A stretch of 64,000 nucleotides of DNA from Zeimonas arvi (GTDB taxonomy: Bacteria > Pseudomonadota > Gammaproteobacteria > Burkholderiales > Burkholderiaceae_E). The stretch covers positions 496,001 to 560,000 of the forward strand of contig NZ_VDUY01000002.1 in NCBI RefSeq assembly GCF_008039575.1, given 5' to 3'. The notes under the pieces are model-generated. The model was not told the origin of the DNA. It saw only the letters and a program-made list of their open reading frames with translations, and searched no databases. A program made the position numbers and the translations under genes. How positions within the stretch are numbered: position 1 is the first letter of the stretch; every line of letters starts with the position of its first letter. This document shows positions 1,578-38,747 of the stretch, in pieces.

Positions 1578-2287
<710 letters not shown>

Positions 2288-3227: not shown

Positions 3228-3236
3228 ATCAATAAT

Positions 3237-3255
3237 CGTATTATCGTACCAGAAT
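3237..3255 (+). promoter_or_regulatory. GTAT-N4-GTACC palindrome next to the livK -10
   Basis: CGTATTATCGTACC at 3237-3250 is an imperfect version of the GGTAT-N4-ATACC palindrome that also occurs before the hemerythrin gene and before bcrC. It is followed directly by AGAAT, so it abuts or overlaps the putative -10 (CAGAAT, 3250-3255) and would block RNA polymerase if occupied. Its centre is 23 bases from the centre of the FNR box. The 200-base stretch from here to livK holds the leader and RBS (CAGGAG) and no other gene that I can support. Confidence 0.55.
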
Positions 3256-7966: not shown

Positions 7967-8005
7967 GCGACCAGGACACCCCACCGACCCACGGAGGAGA
8001 GAACG

Positions 8006-8410
8006 ATGAAACCCTCGCTGGCGAAAGGCGCAGCCCGCACGGTGAAGCTCACCGTCGACCGCGGCCGCACGATCGACTTCATGGGCGAGGCGGCCCGCGT
8101 GTACGCCACGCCGATGCTCGTGCTCGACCTCGAGGTGGCCTGCCGCGAACTGCTCCTCGAGCACCTCGACGCGGGCGAGGACTCGGTGGGCACCCGCGTC
8201 GAGCTCGATCACCTGGCGGCCACGCTGCTCGGCATGACGGTCGAGCTGACGGTGACGATCGCCTCGATCGATGGCCGGTCGGTGGCGTTCGAGTTCACCG
8301 GCAGCGACGGCATCGACACGATCTGCCGAGGCCGTCACCACCGCTTCGTGGTGGACGTGGCCAAGACCGCCGAGCGGCTCGCGGCCAAGGCCAGGAAGGC
8401 CGGGCTATGA
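8006..8410 (+). CDS. FlK-like hotdog-fold acyl-CoA thioesterase
   Basis: A 134-residue hotdog-fold protein resembling fluoroacetyl-CoA thioesterase FlK. The three catalytic residues of FlK (Thr42, Glu50, His76) have counterparts here at Thr35, Glu43 and His69, with exactly the same 8- and 26-residue spacings (ATPMLVLDLE, LDHLAAT). The gene follows livF by 39 bases and overlaps padB by ATGA, so it belongs to the phenylacetyl-CoA oxidation operon. A plausible job is hydrolysis of phenylglyoxylyl-CoA or recovery of CoA from dead-end thioesters; that is inference from position. A strong GGAGGAG precedes the ATG. Confidence 0.78.
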   Translation: MKPSLAKGAARTVKLTVDRGRTIDFMGEAARVYATPMLVLDLEVACRELLLEHLDAGEDSVGTRVELDHLAATLLGMTVELTVTIASIDGRSVAFEFTGSDGIDTICRGRHHRFVVDVAKTAERLAAKARKAGL

Positions 8411-11196: not shown

Positions 11197-11843
11197 CCCG
11201 CTGGGCAATGGTCGCCGACCTGCGACGCTGCGTAGGCTGCCAGACCTGCACGGCGGCGTGCCGCCATGCCAATGCCACGCCCCCGGGCGTGCAGTGGCGG
11301 CGGGTGCTCGACATGGAGTTCGGCGAATACCCGAACGTGCGGCGGGCATTCGTGCCGACCGGCTGCCAGCACTGCGACGACCCGCCGTGCATGGAGGTCT
11401 GCCCGACCACGGCCACGAAGAAGCGCGCCGACGGCATCGTCACCATCGACTACGACCTCTGCATCGGCTGCGCGTACTGCGCCGTCGCATGCCCCTACCA
11501 GGCCCGCTACAAGACCGACCGCGCGACCTTCGCCTACGGCAAGCCCACCGAGCAGGAGTCGGCCCGCCACGACGACGCCCGGCTCGCGGTGGCCACGAAG
11601 TGCACCTTCTGCGTCGACCGCATCGACGACGGACTCGCGAAGGGGCTGCAGCCCGGCGTCGATCCCGAGGCGACGCCGGCCTGCGTGAACGCCTGCATCG
11701 CTAAGGCGCTCGCCTTCGGCAACCTCGACGATCCGGACAGCGAGGTGTCGCGCCTGCTGGCGGAGAACCGCAGCTTCCGGATGCACGAGGAGCTGGGCAC
11801 CGGGCCCGGCTTCCACTACCTGTGGGACAAGGCGGACGAATGA
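11193..11843 (+). CDS. padC: Phenylacetyl-CoA:acceptor oxidoreductase, Fe-S subunit
   Basis: A 216-residue DmsB/NrfC-type electron-transfer subunit. Four cysteine groups for [4Fe-4S] clusters can be read: CVGCQTCTAAC, CQHCDDPPCMEVC, CIGCAYCAVAC, and CTFC paired with ACVNAC. It passes electrons from the PadB molybdenum site to the membrane subunit. Start and stop overlap padB and padD by ATGA, as expected for stoichiometric subunits. Confidence 0.88.
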   Translation: MTRWAMVADLRRCVGCQTCTAACRHANATPPGVQWRRVLDMEFGEYPNVRRAFVPTGCQHCDDPPCMEVCPTTATKKRADGIVTIDYDLCIGCAYCAVACPYQARYKTDRATFAYGKPTEQESARHDDARLAVATKCTFCVDRIDDGLAKGLQPGVDPEATPACVNACIAKALAFGNLDDPDSEVSRLLAENRSFRMHEELGTGPGFHYLWDKADE

Positions 11844-12685
11844 GCTTCGGACCGAACCCCTGGCAACAGGCGCACTGGGACTGGCGAGCAGCCGGCAACT
11901 TCGTCTGCGGCGGCGCCGGCGCCGGGCTGCTGGTGTTCGCCGCGTTCGGCGGCGCCGGCGGCAGCGCGCGCGCCGCGCTGCTGCTGCTCGGCCTGGCGCT
12001 GGTCGGCGCGGGCCTGACCTGCGTCTGGCTCGAGATCGGCCGCCCGCTGCGCGCGCTGCACGTCTTCTTCAACCCGCGCACTTCGTGGATGAGCAGGGAG
12101 GCCGTCACCGCCGCCCTGCTCTTCCCGGCCGGGGTGGCCGGCGCGGCCGGCCTGGCGCCCGCTGCCTGGGCCACCGGCCTGCTCGCCCTCGCCTTCCTCT
12201 GGTGCCAGGCGCGGATCCTGCGCGCCGCGCGCGGCATTCCCGCCTGGCGGCAGCCCGGCATCGTGCCGTTGATCGTCGCGACCGGCCTGGCCGAAGGTTG
12301 CGGCCTGTACCTGATGCTTCGGCCGCTGCACGGCCACGGCGAACAGGTGCTGATGGCGGTGTTCGCCGGCCTGCTGGCCGCGCGCTGGGCAAACTGGGTC
12401 AGCTATCGTCGCCGGCTCGCTTCGTCGGCGGCCCGCCCGGCGCTCGCGGCGCTCGACCAGGCCGGGGACAGGTTGCAGCGGATCGGGACCTACCTGCCCT
12501 TCGCGCTCATCGCACCGGTCGGAATCGGACTGGCGGACGGCGCCGTCGGCCTCGCGCTGACCGTCGCGGCGGGCGCAGCCGCGGCATGGCCCGGAGCCGT
12601 CCTCAAGCACACGCTGATCACGCGCGCCGGCTTCAACCAGGGCTTCGCGCTCACGGCCATGCCTGTGCGCGGCGCGCGGCTCTGA
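11840..12685 (+). CDS. padD: Phenylacetyl-CoA:acceptor oxidoreductase, membrane subunit
   Basis: A 281-residue integral membrane protein of the DmsC/NrfD-like class with about eight hydrophobic segments. It begins SFGPNPWQQAHWDWRAAGNF, a typical start for this group, and continues with a Gly/Ala-rich first helix. It would anchor PadBC and hand electrons to quinone. Conserved aromatic/charged patches lie between helices (LEIGRPLRALHVFFNPRTSW). Its position directly behind padC decides the name; by sequence alone it is only a family member. Confidence 0.82.
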   Translation: MSFGPNPWQQAHWDWRAAGNFVCGGAGAGLLVFAAFGGAGGSARAALLLLGLALVGAGLTCVWLEIGRPLRALHVFFNPRTSWMSREAVTAALLFPAGVAGAAGLAPAAWATGLLALAFLWCQARILRAARGIPAWRQPGIVPLIVATGLAEGCGLYLMLRPLHGHGEQVLMAVFAGLLAARWANWVSYRRRLASSAARPALAALDQAGDRLQRIGTYLPFALIAPVGIGLADGAVGLALTVAAGAAAAWPGAVLKHTLITRAGFNQGFALTAMPVRGARL

Positions 12686-12716
12686 CCCCCCACCGGCACA
12701 CGCCACGGAGCCTGGA

Positions 12717-14069
12717 ATGGGAACGAGGATCTGGAATGCGACCGAACCGGGGGCGCCCCCCGCAAGCGCCCGATACCTGGACCCGGACACCGAGACGCTG
12801 TCCCGCGATGCGCTGGCTGCGCTGCAACTCGAGCGCCTGGCGGCCACGGTTCGCAACGCCTACGATCGCGTGCCGGTGCACCGGGCCCGGCTGGACGCCG
12901 CGGGCCTGCGACCGGAAGACATCCGCTCGCTCGACGACCTGGCCCGGCTGCCCTTCACCACGAAGGCGGACCTGCGCGAGAACTACCCCTTCGGCCTGTT
13001 CGCCCGCCCGGCCGGCGAGCTGTCCCGCCTGCACGCGTCCTCGGGGACCACCGGCAAGCCGACCGTCGTCGGCTACACCGGCGACGACCTCGGGCAGTGG
13101 GCCGGCGTGATGGCGCGCTCGATGCACGGGGGCGGCGTGCGCCGCGGCGACATCGTGCACAACGCCTACGGCTACGGCCTGTTCACCGGCGGCCTGGGCG
13201 CCCACTACGGCGCCGAGCGGCTGGGCGCCGTCGTCGTCCCGGCCTCGGGCGGCTCGACCGCGAGGCAGGTCGCGCTGATCATGGACTTCAAGGCGCGCGT
13301 GCTGTGTTCGACGCCCTCGTACGCACTGGCGATCGCCGAACTCGCCGAGCAGCAGGGCGTGGATCTCGCCCGCGACTCCGCGCTGGAGGTCGGGATGTTC
13401 GGCGCCGAACCCTGGAGCGATGCGATGCGCGCCGAGATCGAGGCCAGGCTGGGGCTGCGCGCAATCGACGTCTACGGCCTGTCGGAGATCATGGGACCGG
13501 GCGTGGCCTGCGAGTGCGAGGCCCAGGCCGGGCTGCACGGCTGGGAGGACCACTTCCTGTTCGAGGTCATCGACCCCGACACCGGGGCGCCGGTGCCCGA
13601 AGGCGAGCCCGGCGAGCTGGTCGTCACGACGCTGACCAGACAGGCGCTGCCGATGCTGCGCTACCGCACCCGCGACATCACCCGCATCACGACGGCGCGC
13701 TGCGACTGCGGGCGCACGCACCTGCGCATCCTGCGCGTCACCGGGCGCAACGACGACATGCTGATCATCCGAGGCGTCAACGTCTATCCGTCGCAGATCG
13801 AGGCCGTCCTGGTCGGCCTGGCGGGCACGGCGCCGCACTACCAGCTGGTGGTCGCGCGCGACGGCCGCCTCGACCGCGTGACCGTCGAGATCGAGGCCGC
13901 GCCTGGTGTCGCGCCCGGCGACTACGCCGCGATCGCCAGCCACGCGGCCAGGCAGATCAAGTCCACGCTGGGCGTGAGCAGCGAGATCGTGCTGAAGGCG
14001 CCGGGCGAGATTCCGAGATCCGAAGGCAAGGCGGTCCGGGTCCGCGACCTTCGACCCAGGGGAGGCTGA
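12717..14069 (+). CDS. Phenylacetate-CoA ligase
   Basis: A 450-residue adenylate-forming ligase of the PaaK/PadJ type. The ATP loop is LHASSGTTGKPTVVGYT, followed by YGYGLFTGGLGAHYGAERLG and the A5-like DVYGLSEIMGPGVACEC. The hinge motif is GRNDDMLIIRGVNVYPSQIE, and the C-terminal lysine motif is in IPRSEGKAVRV. It activates phenylacetate to the CoA thioester that PadBCD then oxidises. It lies 31 bases behind padD and 4 bases before hcrC, so it links the two operons. It corresponds to PadJ of Aromatoleum by context; an aromatic acid other than phenylacetate is possible. Confidence 0.85.
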   Translation: MGTRIWNATEPGAPPASARYLDPDTETLSRDALAALQLERLAATVRNAYDRVPVHRARLDAAGLRPEDIRSLDDLARLPFTTKADLRENYPFGLFARPAGELSRLHASSGTTGKPTVVGYTGDDLGQWAGVMARSMHGGGVRRGDIVHNAYGYGLFTGGLGAHYGAERLGAVVVPASGGSTARQVALIMDFKARVLCSTPSYALAIAELAEQQGVDLARDSALEVGMFGAEPWSDAMRAEIEARLGLRAIDVYGLSEIMGPGVACECEAQAGLHGWEDHFLFEVIDPDTGAPVPEGEPGELVVTTLTRQALPMLRYRTRDITRITTARCDCGRTHLRILRVTGRNDDMLIIRGVNVYPSQIEAVLVGLAGTAPHYQLVVARDGRLDRVTVEIEAAPGVAPGDYAAIASHAARQIKSTLGVSSEIVLKAPGEIPRSEGKAVRVRDLRPRGG

Positions 14070-14073
14070 TGCG

Positions 14074-14538
14074 ATGAGCAGAAGACTGCTGTCGATCGTG
14101 GTCAACGGCCGGCACCGCGAGGACGCGGTGGCCGACGAGGCGCTGCTGGTCGACTACCTGCGTGACAGCGCCGGCCTCACCGGCACCAAGCAGGGATGCG
14201 ACGGCGGGGAATGCGGGGCCTGCACAGTGCTGGTCGACGGGCTCCCCCGGCTCGCCTGCCTGACGCTCGCCGCGAGTTGCGCCGGCGCCCGGATCGAGAC
14301 GATCGAGGGGCTGGCGCAGGCCGGACGGATGAGCCGGCTGCAGCAGGCCTTCCACGAGCATCTGGGCACGCAGTGCGGATTCTGCACGCCGGGAATGATC
14401 ATGTCCGCCGAGGCGCTGCTGCGTCGCAATCCCGCGCCTTCCGAGGTCGAGATCCGCGAGGCGCTCTCCGGAAACCTGTGCCGCTGCACCGGTTACGTGA
14501 AGATCATCGAGTCGGTCAGGGCCGCAGCGGGAGCATGA
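14074..14538 (+). CDS. hcrC: 4-Hydroxybenzoyl-CoA reductase, [2Fe-2S] gamma subunit
   Basis: A 154-residue xanthine-oxidase-family small subunit. It carries the plant-ferredoxin-type [2Fe-2S] motif CDGGECGACTVLVDG with a following Cys, and the second cluster motif CGFCTPGMIMSAE with CRCTGY. It transfers electrons between ferredoxin and the molybdenum subunit. The gene order C-A-B with short gaps and the special FAD subunit identify the enzyme as 4-hydroxybenzoyl-CoA reductase, which removes the phenolic hydroxyl to give benzoyl-CoA. Confidence 0.88.
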   Translation: MSRRLLSIVVNGRHREDAVADEALLVDYLRDSAGLTGTKQGCDGGECGACTVLVDGLPRLACLTLAASCAGARIETIEGLAQAGRMSRLQQAFHEHLGTQCGFCTPGMIMSAEALLRRNPAPSEVEIREALSGNLCRCTGYVKIIESVRAAAGA

Positions 14539-14542
14539 AGCG

Positions 14543-16921
14543 ATGAACTGGAGCGATTCGCCGAAGCCGGAGATGGACGAGCGCGACGAGGCCGCGGCGG
14601 CCACCCGGCGCGAGCATGCGGTGGGCCGGCGCACGCCGCTGATCGACGGCATCGAGAAGGTGACCGGACGCGCGCGCTACACCGCCGACCTGCCCGTCGG
14701 CGACACGCTGGTCGGGCGGATCCTGCGCAGCCCGGTCGCGCACGGCCTGATCCGCGGCATCGACACACGCCGCGCGCTGGCGATTCCCGGCGTGCGGGCG
14801 ATCATTACCGGCGAGGACTTCGCGGCGCCCTACGGCGTGATCCCGATCGCTCAGAACGAGTGGCCGCTGGCGCGCGACAAGGTCCGCTACCGGGGCGAAC
14901 CCGTGGCCGCGGTGGCGGCGGTCGACGCCGCCACCGCGGACCGGGCCCTGGCCGCGATCGAACTCGACATCGCGCCGCTGCCGGCCTACTTCAGCGCCGG
15001 CGAAGCCCGCGCGCCCGACGCGGTGCTGCTGCACGAGCGCAAGCCGGGCAACATCGAGCGCAGTGTCGACCATTGCTTCGGCGACGTCGACGCCGGCTTC
15101 GAACAGGCCGACCTGGTGCGCGAGCACCGCTTCCACTACGCCGAGGTCTCGCACGGCCAGATCGAGCTCAACGCGGCGGTGGCCTGCTACGAGCCGGAAC
15201 GAAACCGTCTGACCTCGCAATCGGTGACCCAGGTCCCGTTCTACCTGCACCTGACGCTGGCGCGCTGCCTGGGGATGGACAGCTCGCAGATCCGCATCGT
15301 CAAGCCCTTCGTCGGCGGCGGCTTCGGCCACCGGGTCGAGCCGCTGAACTTCGAGATGGTCACCGCGGCGCTGGCGCGCGCCGCAGGCGGCACGGTCCGC
15401 ATCGAACAGTCCCGCGAGGACAGCTTCCTCACGCATCGCGCTCGTCCCGAGACCGACATCCGGCTGAAGATCGGCATGACGAAGGCCGGCGAGATCACCG
15501 CGGTCGACTGCGAGATCGTCCAGCGGGGCGGCGCCTACGCGGGCTACGGGCTGGTCACCATCCTGTACGCGGGCGCGCTGCTGCACGCGCTGTACCGGGT
15601 CGGGGCGGTTCGCTATCAAGGGTTCCGCGTGTACTCGAACACCCCGCCCTGCGGCGCGATGCGCGGCCACGGCGCGGTGGACGCGCGTCACGCCTTCGAG
15701 TCGCTGCTCGACATGATGGCCGCCGAGCTCGGCCTGGATCCGTTCGCGGTGCGCCGCGCGAACCTGATCGAGCCGCCCTGCCGAACGCTCAACGACCTGC
15801 AGGTGAACTCCTATGGCATTCCCGAATGCCTGGACCGGGTCGAGCAGGCGTCCGGCTGGCGCGTCAGGCGCGGCCGGCTGCCGCCCGGACGCGGCCTCGG
15901 CATGGCCTGTTCGCACTACGTGTCGGGCTCGGCCAAGCCGGTGCACTGGAGCGGCGAGCCGCATGCGGTGGTCAACCTGAAGCTCGACTTCGACGGCGGC
16001 ATCACGCTTCTGACCGGCGCCGCCGACATCGGCCAGGGCTCGTCGACCCTGCTCGCGCAGGTCGTCGCCGAGGTGCTCGAGCTGCCCCTGGCCCGGATCC
16101 GCGTGATCGCCGCCGACAGCGCGCTCACGCCGAAGGACAACGGCTCGTACTCGTCGCGAGTCTCCTTCATGGTGGGCAACGCCGCGCTGCGCGCCGCGCA
16201 GGCCCTGCGCCGGACGCTGGTCGAGGCCGCGGCGAAGGCGCTGGGCGCCACGGCCGACGAAATCGAGTGGGCGGGCGAGCACTGCCGCGTCGCCGGAACG
16301 GATCGCGGACTCGACTTCCACCGGATCGCCGAGGCGGCGCTGAGCGACAACGGGACGCTGACGGTCAAGGGAAGCTGGTCGACCCCGCCCGAGACCCAGG
16401 GCGGCAGCTTCCGCGGCGCGGCCGTCGGCTCGGCGGCCGGCTTCTCGTACGCCGCGCAGGTCGTCGAGGTGTCGGTCGACGAGGACACCGGCATGGTCAG
16501 GGTGGAGCGGGTCTGGGTGGCGCACGACTGCGGGCGCGCGATCAATCCGCTGGCCGCCGAGGGGCAGGTCCAGGGCGCCGTCTGGATGGGCATGGGCCAG
16601 GCGCTCTGCGAAGAGAACCAGTACCACGAGGGGCTGACGATGCGGCCGAACCTGCTGGACTACCGGATTCCCACGATCGCCGAGTCGCCGCCCATCGAGG
16701 TGATGCTGGTCGAGAGCATGGATCCGCTGGGGCCGTTCGGCGCCAAGGAGGCCAGCGAAGGCGCGCTGCACGGCTTCCCTCCGGCGCTGACGAACGCGAT
16801 CTTCGACGCGATCGGCGTGCGGCTCGACGAGTTGCCCGCCTCGCCCGACCGCGTCCTGGACGCGATCCAGGCGCGGCGCAGACGCGAGCGCCTCGAGGCC
16901 GCGCGAAGCGGGAAGCGCTGA
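14543..16921 (+). CDS. hcrA: 4-Hydroxybenzoyl-CoA reductase, molybdenum alpha subunit
   Basis: A 792-residue molybdopterin (xanthine oxidase family) subunit. Typical elements include PLIDGIEKVTGRARYTADL near residue 35, the FVGGGFGHRVEP loop, TPPCGAMRGHGAVDARHAFE, DIGQGSSTLLAQV and the catalytic glutamate Glu736 in GPFGAKEASEG. The protein is about 20 residues longer at the N terminus than needed for the fold; a later start is possible. It reductively dehydroxylates 4-hydroxybenzoyl-CoA, feeding the benzoyl-CoA reductase encoded nearby. Confidence 0.88.
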   Translation: MNWSDSPKPEMDERDEAAAATRREHAVGRRTPLIDGIEKVTGRARYTADLPVGDTLVGRILRSPVAHGLIRGIDTRRALAIPGVRAIITGEDFAAPYGVIPIAQNEWPLARDKVRYRGEPVAAVAAVDAATADRALAAIELDIAPLPAYFSAGEARAPDAVLLHERKPGNIERSVDHCFGDVDAGFEQADLVREHRFHYAEVSHGQIELNAAVACYEPERNRLTSQSVTQVPFYLHLTLARCLGMDSSQIRIVKPFVGGGFGHRVEPLNFEMVTAALARAAGGTVRIEQSREDSFLTHRARPETDIRLKIGMTKAGEITAVDCEIVQRGGAYAGYGLVTILYAGALLHALYRVGAVRYQGFRVYSNTPPCGAMRGHGAVDARHAFESLLDMMAAELGLDPFAVRRANLIEPPCRTLNDLQVNSYGIPECLDRVEQASGWRVRRGRLPPGRGLGMACSHYVSGSAKPVHWSGEPHAVVNLKLDFDGGITLLTGAADIGQGSSTLLAQVVAEVLELPLARIRVIAADSALTPKDNGSYSSRVSFMVGNAALRAAQALRRTLVEAAAKALGATADEIEWAGEHCRVAGTDRGLDFHRIAEAALSDNGTLTVKGSWSTPPETQGGSFRGAAVGSAAGFSYAAQVVEVSVDEDTGMVRVERVWVAHDCGRAINPLAAEGQVQGAVWMGMGQALCEENQYHEGLTMRPNLLDYRIPTIAESPPIEVMLVESMDPLGPFGAKEASEGALHGFPPALTNAIFDAIGVRLDELPASPDRVLDAIQARRRRERLEAARSGKR

Positions 16922-18239: not shown

Positions 18240-19589
18240 ATGGCCGGGCAGACGCCGGCGTCGCGCCGCCCGAAGCCCGCCGGCGCATTCGTCGCCGGCG
18301 CCGCCAGCCGGCTGCTGCCGGCGTCGGTGCCGCTGCGCTTCTTCGGCGCCGCCACCTTCTTCCACCTGCTCGCGTGGCTGGCGCTGCTCGCCGGCAGCGG
18401 CGAGGCCGCGCGATTCGCCGGAGGCCTCGGCTGGACGCTGGCCGCGCTGCACCTGGCCACGCTCGGCGTGCTTGCAATGACCGCGATCGGCGCGAGCCTG
18501 CAACTGCTGCCGGTGGCCACCCGCCAGCCGATCGGCGCGACGCGGCTGCCGGCGCTGCTGTGGTGGCTCTATGCGCCGGGCGTGGCCCTGCTCGCCGCGG
18601 GCATGGGCACCGGCAGGGTCGTGCTGCTCGCCACCGGCGCGACGGCGGTCGCGGGCGGACTGCTGGCCTTCGCCGCCCTGCTCGCCCGAAACCTGATCGG
18701 CGCCCGGGGCATGCCGGCAGTCGTCGCGCACGGCTGGGTCGCGCTGGCGGCGCTCGCCGCGACGCTGGTCACCGGCCTGTCCCTGGTCTCGGCCTACGCC
18801 GGCCTGCCTTCGCTCGACCGGGGGGCCGCGCTCGCGCTTCACGTGGCGCTGGCCGGCTACGGCTTCATGGGAATGCTCGCGCTCGGGCTCTCCTACATCC
18901 TGGTGCCGATGTTCGCCCTGGCGCCGGTGCCCGACACGCGGCCGGCGCTGATCTCCTGCGCGCTGGCGGCCGCGGCGCTGGGACTCGCGGCGGGGGCGGC
19001 GCTGGGCCTCGCGCCGGCGCTGGCCCGCGCGGGCGCGGCGCTGGCCGCGGCGGCCGCCGTCGCGGTCCACCTCGCGCTGATGCGGCGCGCGCTTCGGGAA
19101 GGCATGCGGCGCGAGCTCGGGCGCTCGTTCGCGCTGGTCCGGATCTCGTGGGCCTTGCTCGGCGCGAGCCTGACCGCCGGGCTCGCCGTCGCGCTCGACG
19201 TCCCGATCCCCGGCGCGCCGACCCTGTTCGGCTTGCTGCTGGTCGTCGGCTGGCTGCTCGGGTTCCTGTTCGGGATCCTGCAGCGGATCCTGCCATTCCT
19301 GGCGGCCATGCACAAGCCGGCCGGGGTCCGGGTGCCGCGCACGCCGTCGTCGCTGACCGACGACCGTCCGCTCGCCGTGCACTTCCACTGCCATCTCGCC
19401 GCACTGGCATTGCTGTGCGTGGCAGTCGTCGCCGACAACGCGACGCTCGTGTCGGTCGCCGCGGGCTTCGGTGCGCTCGGCGCCTGCGCTTTCGCGGCCT
19501 TCTTCGCGACGGTCGTCCACCGGATGCGCCGCCCGGCTCGCGCCTCGCGCCTTGACCCGGGTCAAGACGCCCATGCTCGACAGCCCTAG
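18240..19589 (+). CDS. NnrS-like polytopic membrane protein
   Basis: A 449-residue membrane protein with about twelve hydrophobic helices, resembling NnrS and heme-copper-oxidase-like subunit I relatives. Potential heme/metal-ligand histidines occur in helices (AATFFHLLAWLALL, LAALHLATLGVLAM, VHFHCHLAALALL). NnrS proteins are linked to nitric oxide metabolism in denitrifiers. The gene is co-translated with the DUF2249 gene at the end of the hcr operon. The last 40 bases contain an FNR-like box that serves the next operon. The exact function is unknown. Confidence 0.65.
   Translation: MAGQTPASRRPKPAGAFVAGAASRLLPASVPLRFFGAATFFHLLAWLALLAGSGEAARFAGGLGWTLAALHLATLGVLAMTAIGASLQLLPVATRQPIGATRLPALLWWLYAPGVALLAAGMGTGRVVLLATGATAVAGGLLAFAALLARNLIGARGMPAVVAHGWVALAALAATLVTGLSLVSAYAGLPSLDRGAALALHVALAGYGFMGMLALGLSYILVPMFALAPVPDTRPALISCALAAAALGLAAGAALGLAPALARAGAALAAAAAVAVHLALMRRALREGMRRELGRSFALVRISWALLGASLTAGLAVALDVPIPGAPTLFGLLLVVGWLLGFLFGILQRILPFLAAMHKPAGVRVPRTPSSLTDDRPLAVHFHCHLAALALLCVAVVADNATLVSVAAGFGALGACAFAAFFATVVHRMRRPARASRLDPGQDAHARQP
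19552..19565 (+). promoter_or_regulatory. FNR/Anr-type box upstream of the hemerythrin operon
   Basis: TTGACCCGGGTCAA is a fully symmetric FNR/Anr/Dnr-type box (TTGAC-N4-GTCAA). With its centre at 19558.5 taken as -41.5, the start point falls at about 19600 and the -10 window contains TAGAAT at 19587-19592, a good class II promoter. It lies inside the 3' end of the upstream NnrS-like gene. Confidence 0.7.
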
Positions 19590-19595
19590 AATTTC

Positions 19596-19609
19596 GGTAT
19601 CGCAATACC
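19596..19609 (+). promoter_or_regulatory. GGTAT-N4-ATACC palindrome at hemerythrin promoter
   Basis: GGTATCGCAATACC is a perfect inverted repeat that extends outward to TTCGGTAT/ATACCGAA. It covers the predicted start point (about -4 to +10 if TAGAAT is the -10), a position suited to repression. This is the best-formed copy of the motif shared with livK and bcrC. The hemerythrin ATG lies 16 bases downstream, leaving a leader of about 25 bases. Confidence 0.65.
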
Positions 19610-19624
19610 GAATTAGGACGGCGC

Positions 19625-20119
19625 ATGAACTTCCAGAGTCAGGTCGCCCACGCACTCGACGAGGAGCACCGCGTCAACCTGGACCTGCTCGGCAAGGTCG
19701 AGCAGGCCTTCGCCCGGATGCCGCGCAGCGGAGCGAGCCAGGATCCGGAGCTGGCGCGAGTGGCCGCCGGTTTCGCGCGCCACCTCGAGCACGACGTCGA
19801 TCGGCACTTCGACTTCGAGGAGCAGGTGCTCTTCCCGCGCCTGGCCGACGCCGGCGAAGGCGACATCGCGGAGCTGTTCGCCGAGGAGCACGCCGCGATA
19901 CGCGAAGCCGCCCGGGCGATGCTGCCCCTGGCGCTGGCCGCCGCCGCCGGCGAGCTGGACGACGCCGGCTGGCGCGAACTGAAGGTGGGCGCCCTCGAGA
20001 TCGTCGAGCGGCAGGTCGCGCACATCCAGAAGGAAACGATGGCCCTGTTGCCGGCGCTCGAGGACCTGCTCGACGAAGACACCGATCGCGAGCTCGCGTT
20101 CGCCTACGCGAGCGGCTGA
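19625..20119 (+). CDS. Hemerythrin HHE-domain protein
   Basis: A 164-residue four-helix hemerythrin-like protein. Candidate diiron ligands are in LDEEHRVNLDLL, FARHLEHDVDRHFDFEEQVL and LFAEEHAAIREA, giving the usual H..H-x3-E..H pattern. Such proteins bind oxygen or nitric oxide, or protect and repair Fe-S clusters. It is the first gene of a four-gene operon behind an FNR box and the shared palindrome. A role in shielding benzoyl-CoA reductase or 4-hydroxybenzoyl-CoA reductase from O2/NO is plausible from this control, but not shown. Confidence 0.8.
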   Translation: MNFQSQVAHALDEEHRVNLDLLGKVEQAFARMPRSGASQDPELARVAAGFARHLEHDVDRHFDFEEQVLFPRLADAGEGDIAELFAEEHAAIREAARAMLPLALAAAAGELDDAGWRELKVGALEIVERQVAHIQKETMALLPALEDLLDEDTDRELAFAYASG

Positions 20120-22976: not shown

Positions 22977-23813
22977 TCAAGCCGCCCGCGCCTGCAGCGC
23001 GGCCAGGCGGCCGTGCCGGTACGCGCCCCACAGCGCGGCGCCGATCGCGCCCGCATAGATCGAGTCCGGGTGGTTGGCGATCTCCACCGAGGTCTTCTCG
23101 TTGGCAATCTCTTCGCGAAGCGCCGCGACCAGGCCGGTGTCGAGCGCCAGCCCGCCGGTCATCAGCGCGGTGCCCTCCTTGATGCCGGTGACCTTCAGCA
23201 GCTTGATGATCCGCGAGGCCATCGACAGGTGGATGCCCTTCAGGATGTCGGCCGGCGCGATGCTCCGGGACACCATGTTGATCACGTCGGTCTCCGCCAG
23301 CACCGCGCAGATCGAGCTGACCTTCTCGGGGTTCTCCGACCGCTGGGACAGCGGGCCGATCTCCTCGACCGCCACGCCGAGATAGCGGGCGATGTTCTCG
23401 AGGAACTGCCCCGAGCCCGACGCGCACTGGCTGGTCATCTTGTAGGCGAGCACCTTGCCGCGCTCGTCGACATAGATCGCCCGGCCGTTCAGCGCACCGA
23501 TGTCGACCACCGCCCGCGCGCCCGGATGCAGAAAGACTCCCCCGCGCGCGTGCGTGGTCATCGAGTAGAAGTGCCCGGTCGCGAAAGACACGTTCTCGCC
23601 CTCGCCGGTGGTGGCGATGTAGTCCACGTCCGAGGCGTCCAGCCCGGCGTCGGCGAGCACCGCGTCGCGTCCCTCCTCGGCCAGCTGCATCGGGTCGCGG
23701 CGCCGGATCCGGTCGCAGCGCCTGGCGAGCCAGCTCTGCCTGTCTCCCTCGACCTCGAAGAGCACGCTCTTGACCGCGCCCGAGCCGATGTCGATTCCGA
23801 TCGTGTAGGTCAT
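22977..23813 (-). CDS. bcrD: Benzoyl-CoA reductase subunit D (ATPase delta)
   Basis: A 278-residue ASKHA-fold ATPase subunit of class I benzoyl-CoA reductase. The phosphate loop GIDIGSGAVKSVLFE, the cluster-binding segment SQCASGSGQFLENIARYLG and the GGLALDTGLV motif are those of the BcrA/D and HgdC activator family. With BcrA it forms the ATP-hydrolysing half that drives single electrons to the active site. The length matches BcrD of Thauera (about 280). It lies 26 bases behind bcrA. Confidence 0.92.
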   Translation of the reverse strand: MTYTIGIDIGSGAVKSVLFEVEGDRQSWLARRCDRIRRRDPMQLAEEGRDAVLADAGLDASDVDYIATTGEGENVSFATGHFYSMTTHARGGVFLHPGARAVVDIGALNGRAIYVDERGKVLAYKMTSQCASGSGQFLENIARYLGVAVEEIGPLSQRSENPEKVSSICAVLAETDVINMVSRSIAPADILKGIHLSMASRIIKLLKVTGIKEGTALMTGGLALDTGLVAALREEIANEKTSVEIANHPDSIYAGAIGAALWGAYRHGRLAALQARAA

Positions 23814-23839: not shown

Positions 23840-25180
23840 TCAGGCCCGGGCCTCGGCCGTCTTGCCTTCTTCGACCACGGCCCGCCAGGCGAAGGTGGCC
23901 CCGCCCAGCGCGCCGGTGTAGATCGAGTCCGGGTCGATGTTCAGCGTCATTTCGCCGTAGTTCTCGAACACGAGCTCCTTGAGCGCCTTCACCGCAGCCT
24001 CGTTCTTGGCCACGCCGCCGGTGAAGGTGAACTCGTTTCGGATGCCGCCCGAGCGTGCCAGGATCGACATCGCCCGCAGGATGATCGAGCGGTGCAGGCC
24101 GGCCATGATGTCCTCGCGCTTGTCCCCGAGCGCCAGCCGGTCGCGCAGCTCGGCGCCGGCGAACACCGTGCAGGTCGAGTTGATCCGGACCGTCTTGGTC
24201 GACTTCATCGCGAGCGGGCCGAGCTCGTGCAGGCCCATGTTCATCTCGTCGGCGATGTACCCCAGGTAGCGCCCGCAGCCGGCCGCGCAGCGGTCGTTCA
24301 TCTGGAAGCTCTCCACGATGCCCTGCGGGTCGACCTGGATCGCCTTGGTGTCCTGGCCGCCGATGTCCAGCACCGTGGCGGTCTGCGGGTACATGACGTG
24401 GGCGCCCAGCCCGTGGCACAGGATCTCGGAGCGCACGTGCTCCTTCGAGAAGGGAAGCCGCGCGCGCCCGTAGCCGGTGCCGACCACGTAGGTCTCCTCC
24501 ATGTCGGTGTCCAGGATGCCCTTGACCGGCGCCTCGACCTGCGCGCGACGCCCCGCGGTTTCGGGCATCGCGGCGAAGGTGCGCTCGAGCGCGGCCAGCA
24601 GGTGGCGCCGGATCGATTCGGCGTACACGCGGTTCTCGACCTCGATGATCGACCGGTCGAAGAGGTTGAGCAGGTAGTCGTAGCGGATGCCCATCTCCTT
24701 CGCGACGCTCTCCCCGGCGGCCAGGTACTGGCTCCCGGCGATGTCGCGGAAGAAGTCCGACTTGCGCCGCGCGCCGGGCGCGAACATCGCGGGTGCCTCG
24801 GCCAGGATGCGCCGGAAGACCTCCTCGAGCGCTTCGCCGACCGCCCGGGTATCGTCGCCGAAGCGCGCGCTCGCCAGGCTGCGCTGGCAGGTCTCGGCGA
24901 GGTCGGCCAGCTGCTCCTGGTATTGCTCGGCGCGGAAGTCGCGCTCGAGCTGCGCCAGGAAGCCTTCGAGCTGCCCGTTCAGCGCCCCGCCCTGCGCGAG
25001 CGCCTGCCGGAACAGGTGGAAGCGCCCGTTGACCAGCGCCTCCTGCTTGGCGATCGCCGCCGCCGTGTCGTAGTTCGAGCGCGAGTTGGTGATCCCGCGG
25101 CCGATCACGTTCTGCCGCTCGTCGATGACGACCGCCTTGGTCGTCGTGGAGCCGAGGTCGATTCCGATGAAGCAGCGCAT
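23840..25180 (-). CDS. bcrA: Benzoyl-CoA reductase subunit A (ATPase alpha)
   Basis: A 446-residue ATPase subunit. The N terminus has [16 protein letters not shown]; the C-terminal half has [33 protein letters not shown] (cluster-ligand region) and [15 protein letters not shown]. Compared with BcrD it contains an insertion of about 150 residues in the middle, rich in Arg/Glu, as in Thauera BcrA. It forms the ATPase pair with BcrD around a bridging [4Fe-4S] cluster. bcrB ends 11 bases ahead. Confidence 0.92.
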
Positions 25181-25191
25181 GGGCGCCTCCC

Positions 25192-26505
25192 TCAGTGCGT
25201 GCCGAGCGCGGCGCTGCGCTTCTGGCGGACCATCTGGAAGTAGCTCTCCAGGCGGTTCTTGACGTTGGCCGCCGAGAAGTAGCGCGGGTCGACCAGGTCG
25301 GTCTCGATGAAGGCCGCAGGCTTGCCGGTGCGCTTCTCGACCTCGCGCAGGATCAGCAGCTGGCCGGCCGAGAAGCTGTTGCAGCTCTTGATCGAGTTGA
25401 TGAGCAACCCGTCTGCCTGGTACTCCTCGATGTAGCGGCAGATCATGTCCACGCGCGAGGGCAGGTTCAGGTTCGTGTAGCAGCCCAGGCAGTACTCGGC
25501 GAGCGACTCGAGCGGATGGTCGGGGTCGTGGCGGAAGCCGAAGTCGTACAGGCCGCCGACCTTCGCGTAGGTCGAGGACACCACCACGGCGCCCTCGTCG
25601 TAGAACATCTTCCAGAACTCGCGGAAGCTGGTCCAGTTGGGCGGGCCCTCGACGATCAGCCGGTACTTCTCCTCGCCCATCTCGCCGTCGGGCGTGACCG
25701 GCCCCTTGCCCAGGCGCACGCGCTCGTCGATCTCGGCGCGAAGCTGGCGGTAGTACTGGGTGGCCTCGGGCGTGCCGCGGAAGGCGGTGAAGATCGGGCC
25801 GATGTAGTAGACCGCCCCGAAGTAGCCGTCGATCGGCGAGGGGCGGTTCTTCGCCGACTGCAGCACCGCCACCAGGTCTTCCTCGGCCTTGGCCGACTCC
25901 TTCATGTACTGGCGCAGGCGGTCGATGTCGAACTTGACGCCCGAGATCCGCTCGAGCGTCGGGATCACGGTCTCCTTGAGCTGCCGCACCACGTAGTCGC
26001 GCATGTTCGGCGCGATCTTCCCCTCCCCCTGGTAGGGCACGTGCAGCATGATGGTCTCGCTGCCGTACTTGTGCCGGATCAGCTCGAACCACTTCATGAA
26101 GGTGAAGCAGCCGGTGTACGACAGCAGCAGCACGTCGGGCCGGGGCAGCGGCTCGCCGGTGGGGCCGATCTCGCCGCCCTGCATCATCCCGAGATCGGCC
26201 TTCACGTAGGTGCAGACGTCCTCGGACTGGCCCTCGCGCTCGGCGTCCATGATGAACTTGCCCGACTTCTTGCGCATGCCGTTCTGCAGCGCGTTGGTCT
26301 CGGGCAGGCTGCGCGCGAAGTCGAAGCACATCAGCAGCTCGTTGAGGTTGCCCGGGACGAAGGTGGCCGACACCTTGCGGTTCTCGGCGTGGGCCCGGGA
26401 GAGCTCGGCGTAGTTGCGGTTGATGAGCTCCTTCTGGAGCCACATCGCGTCTTCCTTCTGGACTTCCTGCTTCTTGCCCGAGGCGGGCATCGCGACGGTG
26501 CTCAT
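25192..26505 (-). CDS. bcrB: Benzoyl-CoA reductase subunit B (beta)
   Basis: A 437-residue HgdB-family subunit of the catalytic half that reduces the aromatic ring. Cysteines likely to bind [4Fe-4S] are in [30 protein letters not shown] and [15 protein letters not shown]. The sequence matches the Thauera-type B subunit in length and in the C-terminal segment [20 protein letters not shown]. The ATG overlaps the bcrC stop. With BcrC it binds benzoyl-CoA and the two active-site clusters. Confidence 0.92.
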
Positions 26506-27680
26506 GCTGCGCTCCAGAGTTTGATCGAGTCGGCGAAGGTCCCGGACTGCTCCCGGATCGGCGCCATCTGTCCCGTGTTCTCCGCGTACTTGAAGGCGGT
26601 GGACGGCACGCCGTGCTTGGCCAGGACGTCCTGCAGCATCGGGCGCTCGAGCAGGGCCGGGTCGCAGAAGGACGGCGCCGCGAACACCACGCCCTCGGCT
26701 GCCGCGTTCTTCACCTGCCTGAGCAGGTACTGGCCCTTGTCCTCGCGACGGGCGTCGTACTTGGCCGCAGTGGAAGCCGACCGGTGCAGGAAGGCCTTCG
26801 ACAGCTCCTCGAGCGGCTTGCCGTCGACAGGCACGTCGTCGAGCAGCCAGCGCGTGACCAGCATGAAGTCGTCGTCGACGATGTAGCAGCCGGAAAGCTC
26901 GATCGACTTGATCAGGCCGAGCGGCGGCTGCTCGCAGAACGAGCCGTTCATCACGATGCGGGCGTTGTCGCGCATCGGCCGGGGCACGGCGTCGGTCGCG
27001 GCGATGTACTCGCGCACGAGCCGCGTGTGTTCCTCCGGCGGCAGGACCATGCCCGCGCGCAGCACCAGGTACACCTCGGAGGTCGGCGCCTGCCAGGGCT
27101 TGGCCGCGCGGTAGGCGTAGAGCTCGCGCACGGCCGCCCGGTTGTCGTTGTAGACAGCGATCGAGGCGTTGAGCTCGGCGTCGGTGACCGGCGCGCCGCG
27201 CAGCTCGCCGAGGTCGCGCCGCAGGATCTCGAGCTCCTCGACGTAGAACCTGCCGCCCACCTCGTCCTGGTAGTTCTGCGGCACGTCGAAGTAGCGGACG
27301 TACTTGTCCTTGAACATCAGCTGCCACATGCCCGAGAGATTGCGGATCACGTCGCAGATCGACGGGAACAGCATCCCGTCGAGGCAGTCCAGCCGGCCGG
27401 TGAGGCCGAGCTCGATCGTCGAGCGGGGAATCCTGCAGATGTAGCTCTGGTAGTAGGCGTCGCCCTGGATCACTTCGAGCTGGTCGCCGCCCCCCAGGAT
27501 GCCCACCGGGAGCATCCCGGCGGCGTGCACCAGCTCCCGGGGCACGTACACCGGCATGTAGCCGATGGCCTTGCGCCCCGGCGCGGCGGCCTTCCACGCC
27601 TTCACCGCATTGAAATCGAGATCCTCGAACAGGGCCTGGCAGCGATCGACGATCTGCTGCGCGCTTCGCGGGTCGTTCAT
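26502..27680 (-). CDS. bcrC: Benzoyl-CoA reductase subunit C (gamma)
   Basis: A 392-residue HgdB-family subunit, first gene of bcrCBAD-fdx. Typical stretches are [20 protein letters not shown] and [19 protein letters not shown], with a cysteine in each cluster region ([33 protein letters not shown]). I chose ATG 27680 because GGGAG lies 8 bases ahead; ATG 27695 and 27794 are in frame but have no comparable RBS. Thauera BcrC is 386 residues, close to this length. The promoter lies about 130 bases upstream. Confidence 0.9.
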
Positions 27681-27811
27681 CGACGATGCTCCCATGATTT
27701 GCTCGCGTCCTGCGGCCGTGGCCGCTCGCCGCGTGTCTTCCTCCGTGCCTGACCGCCTTCGGCCGCCGGCGCCGGCCCTTTCGGTGTTGACCATCGGGGC
27801 TTGCCGTGATT

Positions 27812-27830
27812 ATTCTAGTATTGCGGTACC
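27812..27830 (-). promoter_or_regulatory. Palindromic operator abutting a TAGAAT -10 of bcrC
   Basis: On the minus strand the sequence reads GGTACCGCAATACT followed directly by AGAAT, so the palindrome (27817-27830) abuts or overlaps a TAGAAT hexamer at 27812-27817. The same layout, operator then AGAAT, is seen at livK. The inner part matches the hemerythrin site in CGCAATAC. Occupancy would block bcr transcription. The start point would be near 27805, about 125 bases before the bcrC ATG. Confidence 0.55.
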
Positions 27831-27880
27831 GAATTACGTATTTGTGGATCGGATGCTGACGCAAAGACCCGTCCCGGACC

Positions 27881-27894
27881 TTGATCTGCGTCAA
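27881..27894. promoter_or_regulatory. FNR/Anr-type box between bcrC and korA
   Basis: TTGATCTGCGTCAA matches the FNR consensus in both half-sites with one change (GTCAA). It lies in the 268-base divergent region. If the TAGAAT at 27812-27817 is the bcr -10, the box is centred near -82.5, a class I FNR position; for korA it lies about 61 bases before the ATG and a class II start would leave only about 20 bases of leader, with no convincing -10. It could serve both operons. The rest of the gap holds nothing else that I can identify. Confidence 0.65.
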
Positions 27895-27948: not shown

Positions 27949-29739
27949 ATGGAAACCGCCTCGACGAAGGACCGACCGACGCCGCGACCGGAACCGACCC
28001 CGGGCGCGGCGCCACGGTCGACAGGCAGCCTGTCGATCGCCCTGGCAGGCAGCGGGGGAAGCGGCGTGATGACCGCCGGCAACCTGCTGCTCGACGCGGC
28101 TGCGCGCGCCGGCCTGTACGGCCTGATGGTCCGCACCAGCGGCCCTCAGATTCGCGGCGGCGAAGCCGCCGCCCTGCTCAGGCTCTCCGAAGCGCCCACC
28201 GAATCGCTCGACGACGCCTTCCACCTGCTGCTCGCGATCGACTGGCAGAACATCCATCGCTTCGCCGACGAGATCCCGATGCGGCCGGCCGGCCTGCTGC
28301 TGGGCGATGCCGACGAGGGCGAGCCGCCGGCGGTCTTCCTGGCCGGCGGGGCGCGCTTCGTCTCGCTGCCGCTCAAGAAGACTGCCAAGGCGATCCGCGG
28401 CGCCTGGACCAACATGCTCGCGCTCGGCGTGGCGGGTGCGCTGGCCGGCATCCCCCGCGACGCGCTCGAGGCCGCGGTGCGCGCCTCGTGGCGGCGCGAG
28501 GCCTCGGGGCTGGATGCGAACCTCGAGGCGCTGCGCGCCGGCATCGAAGCGGCGGATGCGATCGATCGCGAGCGCGTGCCGCGCATCGACGCAGGCGCGC
28601 ACGCGCGAAACGGTCGCTGGCTGCTCAGCGGGAACGAAGGCGCCGGGCTCGGCGCCCTGCGCGGCGGCATCCGGTTCGTGGCGGCCTACCCGATCACCCC
28701 CGCGACCGAGATGCTCGAATGGATGGCGCCTGCGCTGACGCGGATCGGCGGCACCCTGCTGCAGGCCGAGGACGAGCTGGCGTCGATCAACATGGCGATC
28801 GGCGCCTCCTTCGGCGGCGTGCCCTCGCTGACCGCCACCGCGGGTCCCGGGCTGTCGCTGATGGCCGAAGGCATCGGGCTTGCCGTCAGCGCGGAGGTGC
28901 CGGTCGTCATCGTCGACGTGATGCGCGGCGGGCCCTCCACCGGCATCCCCGCCAAGAGCGAGCAGAGCGACCTCTCCTTTGCCGTAGGTGGCCTGCACGG
29001 CGACGCCCCGCGCCTGGTCCTGGCCCCCACCTCGATCACCGACTGCGTGGCGACGACCCAGTGGGCGGTGACGCTCGCGGAAGCGACCCAGGCGCCGGCC
29101 ATCGTCCTGTCCGACCAGTTCATGGGGCAGTCGCGTGCGATCGTCGACCGGCCGGCCGATCCCGGCTTCGTCGCGCACCGCCTGGTGGCGCAGGCGGACG
29201 CTCCAGGCTTCAAGCGCTACCGCGACACCGAATCCGGCGTGTCGCCGATGGCGATCCCGGGCACGCCCGGCACGGTCTACACCGCGGACGGGCTCGAGAA
29301 GTCCGAGGCAGGCATTCCCAGCAGCCAGGCGCGCGACCACGCGATCCAGCTCGACAAGCGCGAGCGCAAGCTGCGCCGTCACGACTACGGTCGCTGGTGG
29401 GCCGATGTCGAAGGCGCCGGCGACGCGGCGATCCTCACCTTCGGCTCGGTGACCGGCGTGGCGCGCGAAGCCCTCGCCCGCCTCGCCGGGCAAGGCATGG
29501 CGCTGCGGCTCGTCGCGCTGCGCCTGCTCGCGCCGGCGCTGCCCGAGCGCCTCGCGCAGGCCCTGGAAGGCGTTTCCAGCGTCCTGGTGGTCGAACAGAA
29601 CCACTCCGCGCAGCTCTTTCGCTACCTCAGGGCGATGTACGACCTGCCGGGCAAGCCGGCGAGCTTCCATCGTCCCGGCCCCCTGCCGATCCGGCCCGGC
29701 GAGCTCGCCGACGCCATCCTCGAATGGAGAAACCGATGA
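27949..29739 (+). CDS. korA: 2-Oxoacid:ferredoxin oxidoreductase, fused gamma-alpha subunit
   Basis: A 596-residue protein with an N-terminal gamma domain (ALAGSGGSGVMTAGNLLLDA, RTSGPQIRGGEAAALLRLSE; about residues 25-210) fused to the alpha domain (FVAAYPITPATEMLEWMAPA onward). This two-subunit layout is that of KorAB from Thauera aromatica, which oxidises 2-oxoglutarate and reduces the ferredoxin feeding benzoyl-CoA reductase. GGAGGAG at 27934-27940 supports the ATG at 27949. It overlaps korB by ATGA. Pyruvate or another oxoacid is possible as substrate; position next to bcr favours the electron-supply role. Confidence 0.85.
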   Translation: METASTKDRPTPRPEPTPGAAPRSTGSLSIALAGSGGSGVMTAGNLLLDAAARAGLYGLMVRTSGPQIRGGEAAALLRLSEAPTESLDDAFHLLLAIDWQNIHRFADEIPMRPAGLLLGDADEGEPPAVFLAGGARFVSLPLKKTAKAIRGAWTNMLALGVAGALAGIPRDALEAAVRASWRREASGLDANLEALRAGIEAADAIDRERVPRIDAGAHARNGRWLLSGNEGAGLGALRGGIRFVAAYPITPATEMLEWMAPALTRIGGTLLQAEDELASINMAIGASFGGVPSLTATAGPGLSLMAEGIGLAVSAEVPVVIVDVMRGGPSTGIPAKSEQSDLSFAVGGLHGDAPRLVLAPTSITDCVATTQWAVTLAEATQAPAIVLSDQFMGQSRAIVDRPADPGFVAHRLVAQADAPGFKRYRDTESGVSPMAIPGTPGTVYTADGLEKSEAGIPSSQARDHAIQLDKRERKLRRHDYGRWWADVEGAGDAAILTFGSVTGVAREALARLAGQGMALRLVALRLLAPALPERLAQALEGVSSVLVVEQNHSAQLFRYLRAMYDLPGKPASFHRPGPLPIRPGELADAILEWRNR

Positions 29740-30590
29740 CCCCGCTCGCGACCGCCGAAGCCGCAGCGCCCTGCGCGCCGCTGACCGCCCAGGACTACAA
29801 GTCAGACTACAAGCCCATCTGGTGCCCGGGTTGCGGCGACTACACGGTGCTGTCGTCGGTCACCAAGGCCCTGGCCATGCTGCAGCTGCGGCCCGAGAAC
29901 GTGGCCGTGGTCTCGGGCATCGGCTGCTCTTCCCGCATACCGGCCTACACCGCCTGCTACGGCTTCCACGGCGTGCACGGCCGCTCCCTTGCCGCGGCGA
30001 CCGGGCTCAAGGTCGCCCGGCCCGACCTGACCGTGCTGGTGGCCAGCGGCGACGGGGACGGTTACTCGATCGGCGGCAACCACTTCCTGCACGCCTGCCG
30101 GCGCAACGTCGACCTCACCTACGTGGTGATGGACAACCACGTCTACGGCATGACCAAGGGCCAGCCCTCGCCGACGACCGAGCCCGACTGGGACTCGAAG
30201 CTGGCGCCCGGCGGCACCGGGCTGCGCAGCTTCCATCCGCTGGTCATCGCGCTGGCCTCGGGCGCGAACTTCGTCGCGCGCGCGTTCTCCGGCGACCCGA
30301 ACGGCACGGCCGACATCCTGGCGCAGGCGATCCGCCATCCCGGCTTCTCCTTCGTCGAGATCCTCAGCCCCTGCGTGACCTTCCGGCCGGAGCAGCGCGG
30401 CTGGAAGGAGCGCGTGCACGCCGCGCCGGTGGAGGCCACCGACGACCCGGCGCGCGCGGCCCGGCGGATCATGACCGACGACGGCTTCAACCTGGGCGTG
30501 CTCTACGCCGGCGACCGGCCGGCGTACCCGCCGCCGGCACGCGCGGCGAGCGCAACGGTGGCCGACCTCGAAACGGAGTTCGCGCCATGA
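29736..30590 (+). CDS. korB: 2-Oxoacid:ferredoxin oxidoreductase, beta subunit
   Basis: A 284-residue TPP-binding beta subunit. The cluster and TPP motifs are PIWCPGCGDYTVL, VSGIGCSSRIPAYTACYGFH, VASGDGDGYSIGGNHFLHA and MDNHVYGMTKGQPSPTT. The start at 29736 uses GGAG six bases upstream and overlaps the korA stop; ATG 29724 would add four residues. There is no fused ferredoxin domain, consistent with use of the separate Fdx. The end overlaps the rubrerythrin-like gene by ATGA. Confidence 0.87.
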   Translation: MTPLATAEAAAPCAPLTAQDYKSDYKPIWCPGCGDYTVLSSVTKALAMLQLRPENVAVVSGIGCSSRIPAYTACYGFHGVHGRSLAAATGLKVARPDLTVLVASGDGDGYSIGGNHFLHACRRNVDLTYVVMDNHVYGMTKGQPSPTTEPDWDSKLAPGGTGLRSFHPLVIALASGANFVARAFSGDPNGTADILAQAIRHPGFSFVEILSPCVTFRPEQRGWKERVHAAPVEATDDPARAARRIMTDDGFNLGVLYAGDRPAYPPPARAASATVADLETEFAP

Positions 30591-38685: not shown

Positions 38686-38747
38686 GACGGACCTCTCGTG
38701 AGAACTTTGGCCAACCCTCAATTTCGGCCCCTGGGGCGAGCCTTGCG

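Follow-up and report, generated by a model that had tools for sequence, protein, structure and literature searches.

A candidate BadM-type Rrf2 operator beside FNR boxes at the promoters of an anaerobic aromatic island in Zeimonas arvi

When aromatic compounds are broken down without oxygen, the central step is the reduction of benzoyl-CoA. In the window analyzed here, a 64,000-nucleotide stretch of the Zeimonas arvi genome, profile searches revealed an anaerobic aromatic island with bcr, kor and hcr genes, a liv transporter, a ligase, a hemerythrin gene and a GNAT-Rrf2 pair. A palindrome at the livK, hemerythrin and bcrC promoters of this island is very probably an operator for the BadM-type Rrf2 repressor whose gene lies at 2240-2698, and together with FNR it would make these genes dependent on both anoxia and substrate. 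The model is based on sequence, conservation, position and co-occurrence; binding, repression, ligand, oxygen response and operon extents are the parts of it that we infer.

The GNAT-Rrf2 pair (3205-2240, minus strand) is divergent from livK, with which the genes at 5495..16921 probably form one unit; within this run we take the Mo oxidoreductase to be padB-like, and the AMP-binding CoA ligase is presumably PaaK-like (Table 1). The gene names korA and korB were assigned in this analysis. The proteins encoded at 18240-19589 and 21532-22719, which flank the hemerythrin region, had no Pfam match at 1e-5, and relatives of them were observed at 17/80 and 18/80 named bcrC loci, respectively.

Table 1. 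Genes and predicted regulatory features of the island (window coordinates; operator centers relative to predicted starts).
Feature	Position	Strand	Evidence or remark
Rrf2-family winged-helix regulator, BadM-type candidate repressor	2240..2698	-	TIGR00738 5.5e-28 (above cut-off), PF02082; 0 Cys
GNAT acetyltransferase, BadL-like, in tandem with Rrf2 gene	2714..3205	-	PF00583
FNR box of livK, TTGATCAGGATCAA	3214..3227	+	
Operator of livK, ATAATCGTATTATCGTACCAGAAT	3232..3255	+	1 mismatch; center ~-18.5
Predicted -10 of livK, CAGAAT	3250..3255	+	class II FNR distance; overlaps operator arm
livK-type substrate-binding protein	3458..4624	+	profile search; heads plus-strand run
liv permease and ATPase genes, FlK-type thioesterase, Mo oxidoreductase, AMP-binding CoA ligase, hcrC, hcrA	5495..16921	+	profile searches
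Mo oxidoreductase product	8407-11196		
4-hydroxybenzoyl-CoA reductase, hcrC/hcrA	14074-16921		
FNR box of hemerythrin gene, TTGACCCGGGTCAA	19552..19565	+	
Predicted -10 of hemerythrin gene, TAGAAT	19587..19592	+	one base short of class II distance
Operator of hemerythrin gene, ATTTCGGTATCGCAATACCGAATT	19591..19614	+	0 mismatches; center ~+2.5
Hemerythrin-domain protein	19625..20119	+	PF01814 7e-15
bcrD (start approximate)	22977..23810	-	TIGR02261 1e-132
bcrA (start approximate)	23840..25180	-	TIGR02259 8e-212
bcrB (start approximate)	25192..26466	-	TIGR02260 2e-232
bcrC, benzoyl-CoA reductase subunit C (start 27698 or 27681)	26502..27698	-	TIGR02263 2e-195
Operator of bcrC, AATTCGGTACCGCAATACTAGAAT	27812..27835	-	1 mismatch; AGAAT is its outer arm; center ~+22.5
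Second, overlapping operator copy of bcrC	27820..27843	-	2 mismatches; center ~+14.5
Predicted -10 of bcrC, CAGCAT	27853..27858	-	class II distance; predicted start ~27846
FNR box of bcr operon, TTGACGCAGATCAA (minus-strand reading)	27881..27894	-	
korA, 2-oxoacid:acceptor oxidoreductase alpha subunit	27949..29739	+	TIGR03710 4e-159; divergent from bcrC
korB, thiamine-pyrophosphate enzyme, probably beta subunit	29736..30590	+	PF02775 4e-29

Operator element and promoter geometry

The palindrome reads GTATTATCGTACC at 3238-3250 before livK, GGTATCGCAATACC at 19596-19609 before the hemerythrin gene and GGTACCGCAATACT on the minus strand at 27830-27817 before bcrC, and these sites, as well as the accompanying FNR boxes, lie where the initial annotation had placed them. 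The annotation had also proposed GGTAT-N4-ATACC as the shared unit; with up to 2 mismatches this short form gave 5 matches in the window vs. 3.08 expected, a number reached by 20/100 shuffles and thus not significant, and since the count is within chance the short palindrome was dropped as the unit. What stands above chance is a longer element of ~24-26 bp, AWWNNGGTAY-N4-RTACCNNWWT, present at all three promoters and of which the short palindrome is the core, with two opposed GGTAY half-sites 4 bp apart, A/T-rich outer arms, and TA steps every 8 bp along ~26 bp. Among 99 centered sites in relatives, the outer left A was found in 91 and the outer right T in 90.

The long form AWWNNGGTAYNNNNRTACCNNWWT was compiled from the relatives and the window, and with up to 2 mismatches it gave 4 matches in the window (two of them overlapping at bcrC) vs. 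0.01 expected. Across the 3.83-Mb genome it gave 5 matches (reversed control, 2), comprising the four at the three promoters of the window and one on another contig (C13), which from its letters we take to be 23S rRNA; the palindrome is therefore rare at unrelated genes of this genome, as the initial annotation required of a true operator. A chance likeness of the three promoters would agree with the count of the short form in the window, but it is scarcely credible given the number of long-form matches and the recurrence of the element at orthologous promoters of another class.

The window holds 5 FNR boxes at up to 1 mismatch (vs. 1.10 expected), a number that none of 100 shuffles reached, and the genome holds 12 exact boxes (control, 2). 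The pattern GTAY-N4-RTAC was found 14 times in the genome (reversed control, 28), and three of its matches pair with three exact FNR boxes within 65 bp, at precisely these promoters. Furthermore, in 80 named bcrC loci (1.27 Mb, with record titles mostly of Burkholderiales or Betaproteobacteria and a few less exact), which hold 144 FNR boxes at up to 1 mismatch, 52 of the 88 GTAY-N4-RTAC matches had an FNR box within 110 bp. It is because of the pairing in the genome, the pairing in the named loci and the longer element in relatives that we regard the element as above chance. A fourth exact FNR box, TTGACCGGTGTCAA, was observed in the window at 38748-38761, between a pgsA-like gene and the gene 38059-38721, with no operator near it.

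At class II distance, the center of the FNR box stands at -41.5 and the -10 lies 29.5 bp from it, a spacing that is exact for the predicted starts of livK and bcrC and off by one base for that of the hemerythrin gene. The A2/T6 signature of a -10 was present at this distance in 74% of 65 FNR-operator pairs, which are distinct but related, and at 20 other offsets in at most 20%. AGAAT does directly follow the palindrome at livK and bcrC, as had been reported, and the proposal that it serves as the -10 fits livK, where it falls at class II distance (3250-3255). At bcrC such a role is improbable, since the class II position is 27853-27858, where CAGCAT appears to be the better-placed, though weak, hexamer; AGAAT is there a symmetric outer arm downstream of the predicted start. 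Two relatives (L040 and L050) read GATAAT and CATAAT where bcrC has CAGCAT, and at livK and the hemerythrin gene the AGAAT letters double as -10 and operator arm.

The distance from operator center to FNR center is 23 bp at livK, 44 bp at the hemerythrin gene (41-44 in relatives) and mostly 52-64 bp at the heads of bcr operons, where operator centers lie mostly at +10 to +22 of the predicted starts; the two overlapping copies at bcrC are shifted by 8 bp. These positions, in the spacer, over the start and in the early transcribed region, would suit a polymerase-blocking repressor at all three promoters. IscR, on the other side, can act as both activator and repressor, and activators rarely work from sites over or downstream of the start. 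A reading in which the Rrf2 protein binds the palindrome and activates, or alternates between both roles, would be compatible with the livK site, which is upstream of the predicted start and between FNR and the -10; however, the hemerythrin and bcr sites cover the predicted start or lie downstream of it, and R. palustris BadM acts by repression (PMC6191541), and we deem activation very unlikely.

Conservation of the site and its link to the Rrf2 gene

A matrix was built from 146 distinct Burkholderiales-type sites and applied to the 80 named loci and the window, an in-sample set on whose loci it had been trained. In this set it matched 58/58 korA/bcr promoters (window included), 5/5 livK/GNAT promoters (with one shared gap), only 14/23 hemerythrin promoters, and 10/75 regions upstream of bcrC, which is usually not the first gene of its operon. 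In 1.34 Mb, 145 of the 149 matches above 18 bits were inside these upstream windows (overlapping copies counted), and one shuffled copy of the 1.34 Mb gave 0; random 560-bp windows, which may include real sites, contained a match in 37/1160 cases in the korA run. Some of the named loci are contigs of genomes that were also searched whole, and the respective counts are not independent.

Conservation extended to another class, i.e., to same-phylum genomes in the class of G264. In all 15 bcrC genomes of this class, the korA/bcr or bcrC promoter had a site that outscored the best of 30 shuffles; these genomes were outside the training set, 2 of them (G264 and G305) being found by bcrC among 398 phylum genomes and 13 being picked for their Rrf2 gene. 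Moreover, two loci (L256 and L258) carried a site before the hemerythrin gene as well, and the former had a further site between GNAT-Rrf2 and hcrA, repeating the set of the window. The palindrome is thus kept at orthologous bcr promoters, another point on which the initial annotation had made its proposal depend. The FNR box that had been described beside it is present at the three window promoters, but the palindrome can also stand without it: only 2/15 korA/bcr promoters of the other class had one within 110 bp (up to 1 mismatch), and the notion of FNR box and palindrome as a fixed pair was rejected. Since FNR boxes are mostly absent there, the operator looks like the constant and the FNR pairing like a lineage feature.

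Tandem overlapping sites were seen at 51/58 korA/bcr promoters vs. 3/14 site-bearing hemerythrin promoters (Fisher 3e-6), a count that, depending on a score threshold, a self-similar motif and related sequences, is only indicative. These 8-bp-shifted copies favor protein-DNA contacts over an RNA-level role of the palindrome as attenuator or leader hairpin. Such a role would find room at the hemerythrin gene and bcr, where the palindromes are in or near the predicted leader, but the livK palindrome lies upstream of the predicted start, and we assign this explanation next to no probability.

The identity of the binding protein was approached by co-occurrence. In a family sample of 74 genomes (Rrf2 at E up to 1e-25, bcrC at E below 1e-200), the Rrf2 gene was found in 24 and bcrC in 20, and 20/20 bcrC genomes had the Rrf2 gene (Fisher 2e-14); a further genome, in which the BcrC-like match reached only 38%, was left out of the bcrC count. 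The operator with up to 1 mismatch was present in 24/24 genomes with the Rrf2 gene vs. 9/50 genomes lacking it (Fisher 2e-12), and the reversed control pattern matched in 11/74. In one genome (G004) the sole operator match is far from the Rrf2 gene and the control also matches; the operator match may be due to chance. A genome of the same genus (G064), which has neither Rrf2 gene nor bcrC, showed no operator at 1 mismatch, and 3 matches at 2 mismatches along with 3 of the control.

A GNAT gene adjoined the Rrf2 gene in 24/24 family loci and in 22/23 loci of the other class, where Rrf2 (E up to 1e-22) was detected in 22/385 genomes, the 23 loci being those of these genomes plus that of G305. 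The best matrix match beat 30 shuffles at 17/23 of these loci, 14 times just upstream of the GNAT gene that precedes Rrf2; the three other positives were before livK, at the 5' end of GNAT, and between GNAT and Rrf2, the last being weak (9.3 bits vs. 7.1). No site above 30 shuffles was found at 6/23 loci, yet five of the genomes concerned (G264, G579, G634, G721 and G792) had a site at the korA/bcr or bcrC promoter, the sixth being G671. With bcrC at E 1e-100 in 15/23 Rrf2-positive genomes, 7 of the 8 that lack it had the site just upstream of GNAT-Rrf2, and for that reason the site appears to follow the Rrf2 gene and not only bcr. Among the genomes searched there was no bcrC-positive, Rrf2-negative genome to separate both factors. 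The plain pattern was unspecific in the other class, with matches in 195/385 genomes (19/22 with Rrf2 vs. 176/363 without).

Fe-S regulators of the Rrf2 family (IscR, NsrR and RirA) have three cluster-binding cysteines. This cluster site was absent from the window Rrf2 protein (0 Cys) and from all 52 Rrf2 sequences compared, whose first 135 residues had no Cys in 36, one in 14 and two in 2; HLAKV, which we take to be the recognition helix of Rrf2, was present in 49/52.

Comparison with known regulators and proposed mechanism

NsrR, IscR and RirA share the Rrf2 family with the window protein, which differs in lacking their three-cysteine site; all three were among its named matches in curated families, below the curated cut-offs, and NsrR and IscR were also among its PDB matches. 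That a different regulator encoded elsewhere binds the palindrome, either a TetR-type protein like MbdR or an Fe-S regulator of the NsrR/IscR type, is unlikely, even though NsrR is an Rrf2 protein, the regulon described here includes a hemerythrin, and MbdR of Azoarcus likewise represses an anaerobic aromatic pathway from an operator with ATAC and GTAT halves (PMC4424350). The MbdR operator, ATAC-N10-GTAT (PMC4424350), has 14 bp from TA to TA, in contrast to 8 and 16 in the window sites, and MbdR belongs to the TetR family and has 3-methylbenzoyl-CoA as its ligand. The MbdR form was not found at the sites under study, which are GTAY-N4-RTAC with 8-bp TA phasing. Similarly, the NsrR consensus, gATGyAT-N5-ATrCATc, is unlike the window operator (PMC1274295). 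On spacing, consensus, the missing Cys triad of the Rrf2 orthologues and the tracking of the Rrf2 gene in genomes without bcrC, NsrR, IscR and MbdR were rejected as the binder.

The preferred candidate remains the BadM-type protein of the island; that an aromatic-responsive repressor, with this Rrf2 protein as candidate, acts at the palindrome besides FNR had been the suggestion of the initial annotation, and it is favored by the comparative evidence. The badDEFGAB genes of R. palustris are repressed by the Rrf2 protein BadM and activated by AadR of the Crp family; the GNAT protein BadL, whose gene is clustered with badM, makes acetamidobenzoates, which at 10 mM weaken BadM binding (PMC6191541). 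In that species, the locus tags of badM, badL and two ABC transporter genes of the hba set follow directly on one another (rpa0663-0666), and the levels of badL and badM go up on 4-hydroxybenzoate (PMC6974649). The window is alike in that a putative Rrf2 repressor is paired with a GNAT protein beside ABC-transporter genes (PMC6191541, PMC6974649), and in that benzoyl-CoA reductase genes would also be under a Crp/FNR-type activator (PMC6191541). Unlike R. palustris BadM, the window system is in Burkholderiales; a 2024 survey, in its available portions, gives BadM in Alphaproteobacteria contexts only (PMC10803450). Furthermore, the window operator, defined here by comparison, also marks the hemerythrin, korA/bcr and livK promoters, with FNR at class II distance.

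The bzd PN promoter of Azoarcus follows the same logic, with an FNR-type activator, AcpR, at -41.5 and the repressor BzdR over -10/+1 (PMC6678401). BzdR differs, however, in joining an XRE-type DNA-binding domain to a shikimate-kinase-like domain (PMC6449761), in binding TGCA repeats and in responding to benzoyl-CoA (PMC6678401). In the available portions of its text, a survey of betaproteobacterial regulons does not mention Rrf2 and detected no BzdR/BoxR sites upstream of the bcr operon of Thauera (PMC6449761).

In the proposed mechanism, FNR at -41.5 would recruit RNA polymerase without oxygen (class II activation), and the Rrf2 repressor would block polymerase until an aromatic signal removes it, from a site that separates FNR from the start at livK, covers the start at the hemerythrin gene and lies just downstream of the start at bcr. 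Going by the R. palustris homologue only, this signal would probably be an acetylated aminobenzoate from the neighboring BadL-like GNAT, and the badL-badM pair would adjoin an operator of its own. Transport (liv), ring reduction (bcr and hcr) and hemerythrin would thereby come jointly under the control of anoxia and substrate, and the divergent ketoacid oxidoreductase may be under the same control.

An Agrobacterium tumefaciens plasmid (NZ_CP123840.1, L262) was observed to carry a GNAT gene, an Rrf2 gene, a branched-chain-type transporter and a gene of the benzoate-CoA ligase family, next to the genes for a molybdenum hydroxylase of three subunits; weak operators precede GNAT (23.2 bits, without shuffle control) and the transporter (14.1 bits). 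BcrC had no match in plasmids at 1e-80.

Wider regulon and biological meaning

The wider regulon was explored in 16 chosen stretches of relatives, with genes mostly named by eye from their letters. Sites were found before a second reductase-like gene with 39% identity to BcrC (L266), before Mo oxidoreductases like the 8407-11196 product of the window (L270 and L278, named by eye), before hemerythrin and GNAT-like genes (L272 and L274, named by eye) and before korA (L277, named by eye). Four stretches (L265, L268, L271 and L276) had sites at ilvD/bfd- or nitrate reductase-like genes, whose fit to the regulon is doubtful, and six (L263, L264, L267, L269, L273 and L275) had sites before further genes.

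In three of these stretches, of the same genus (L265, L268 and L271), a related site, GGTATCGCAATGCC / GGCATTGCGATACC, lies between ilvD-like and bfd-like genes, with the version GGTATCGGAATGCG in the last one. This site may belong to another regulator, and the genome of the window has no match of the ilvD/bfd type at 2 mismatches. At another locus (L201, of G791), the Rrf2 match contains one in-frame TGA, while the GNAT gene is still present, as is an operator of 31.9 bits. In G264 (L166, 13001-15564), an Rrf2 gene, a hemerythrin gene and three GNAT-like genes form one minus-strand run preceded by a 26-bit site.

BadM function has been described for R. palustris (PMC6191541). The operator can be used as a search pattern in two classes, which would turn a regulator known from one species into a regulon readable from genomes, and it points to the operons that would require anoxia together with an aromatic signal, in a set now extended by the hemerythrin gene, the ketoacid oxidoreductase promoter and the transporter.

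As a tentative extension, which we find possible and less likely true than false, the 8-bp phasing of the operator would allow one or two interlocked BadM-type dimers to bind, a single one at livK and hemerythrin and a double one at bcr/korA, with a staged release and a two-class regulon guarded by hemerythrin. If this were true, an aminobenzoate-type signal could free transport and oxygen defense first, and the costly, oxygen-sensitive ring reductase would be released last; the BadM regulon would then be common to two proteobacterial classes, with hemerythrin as its built-in guard.
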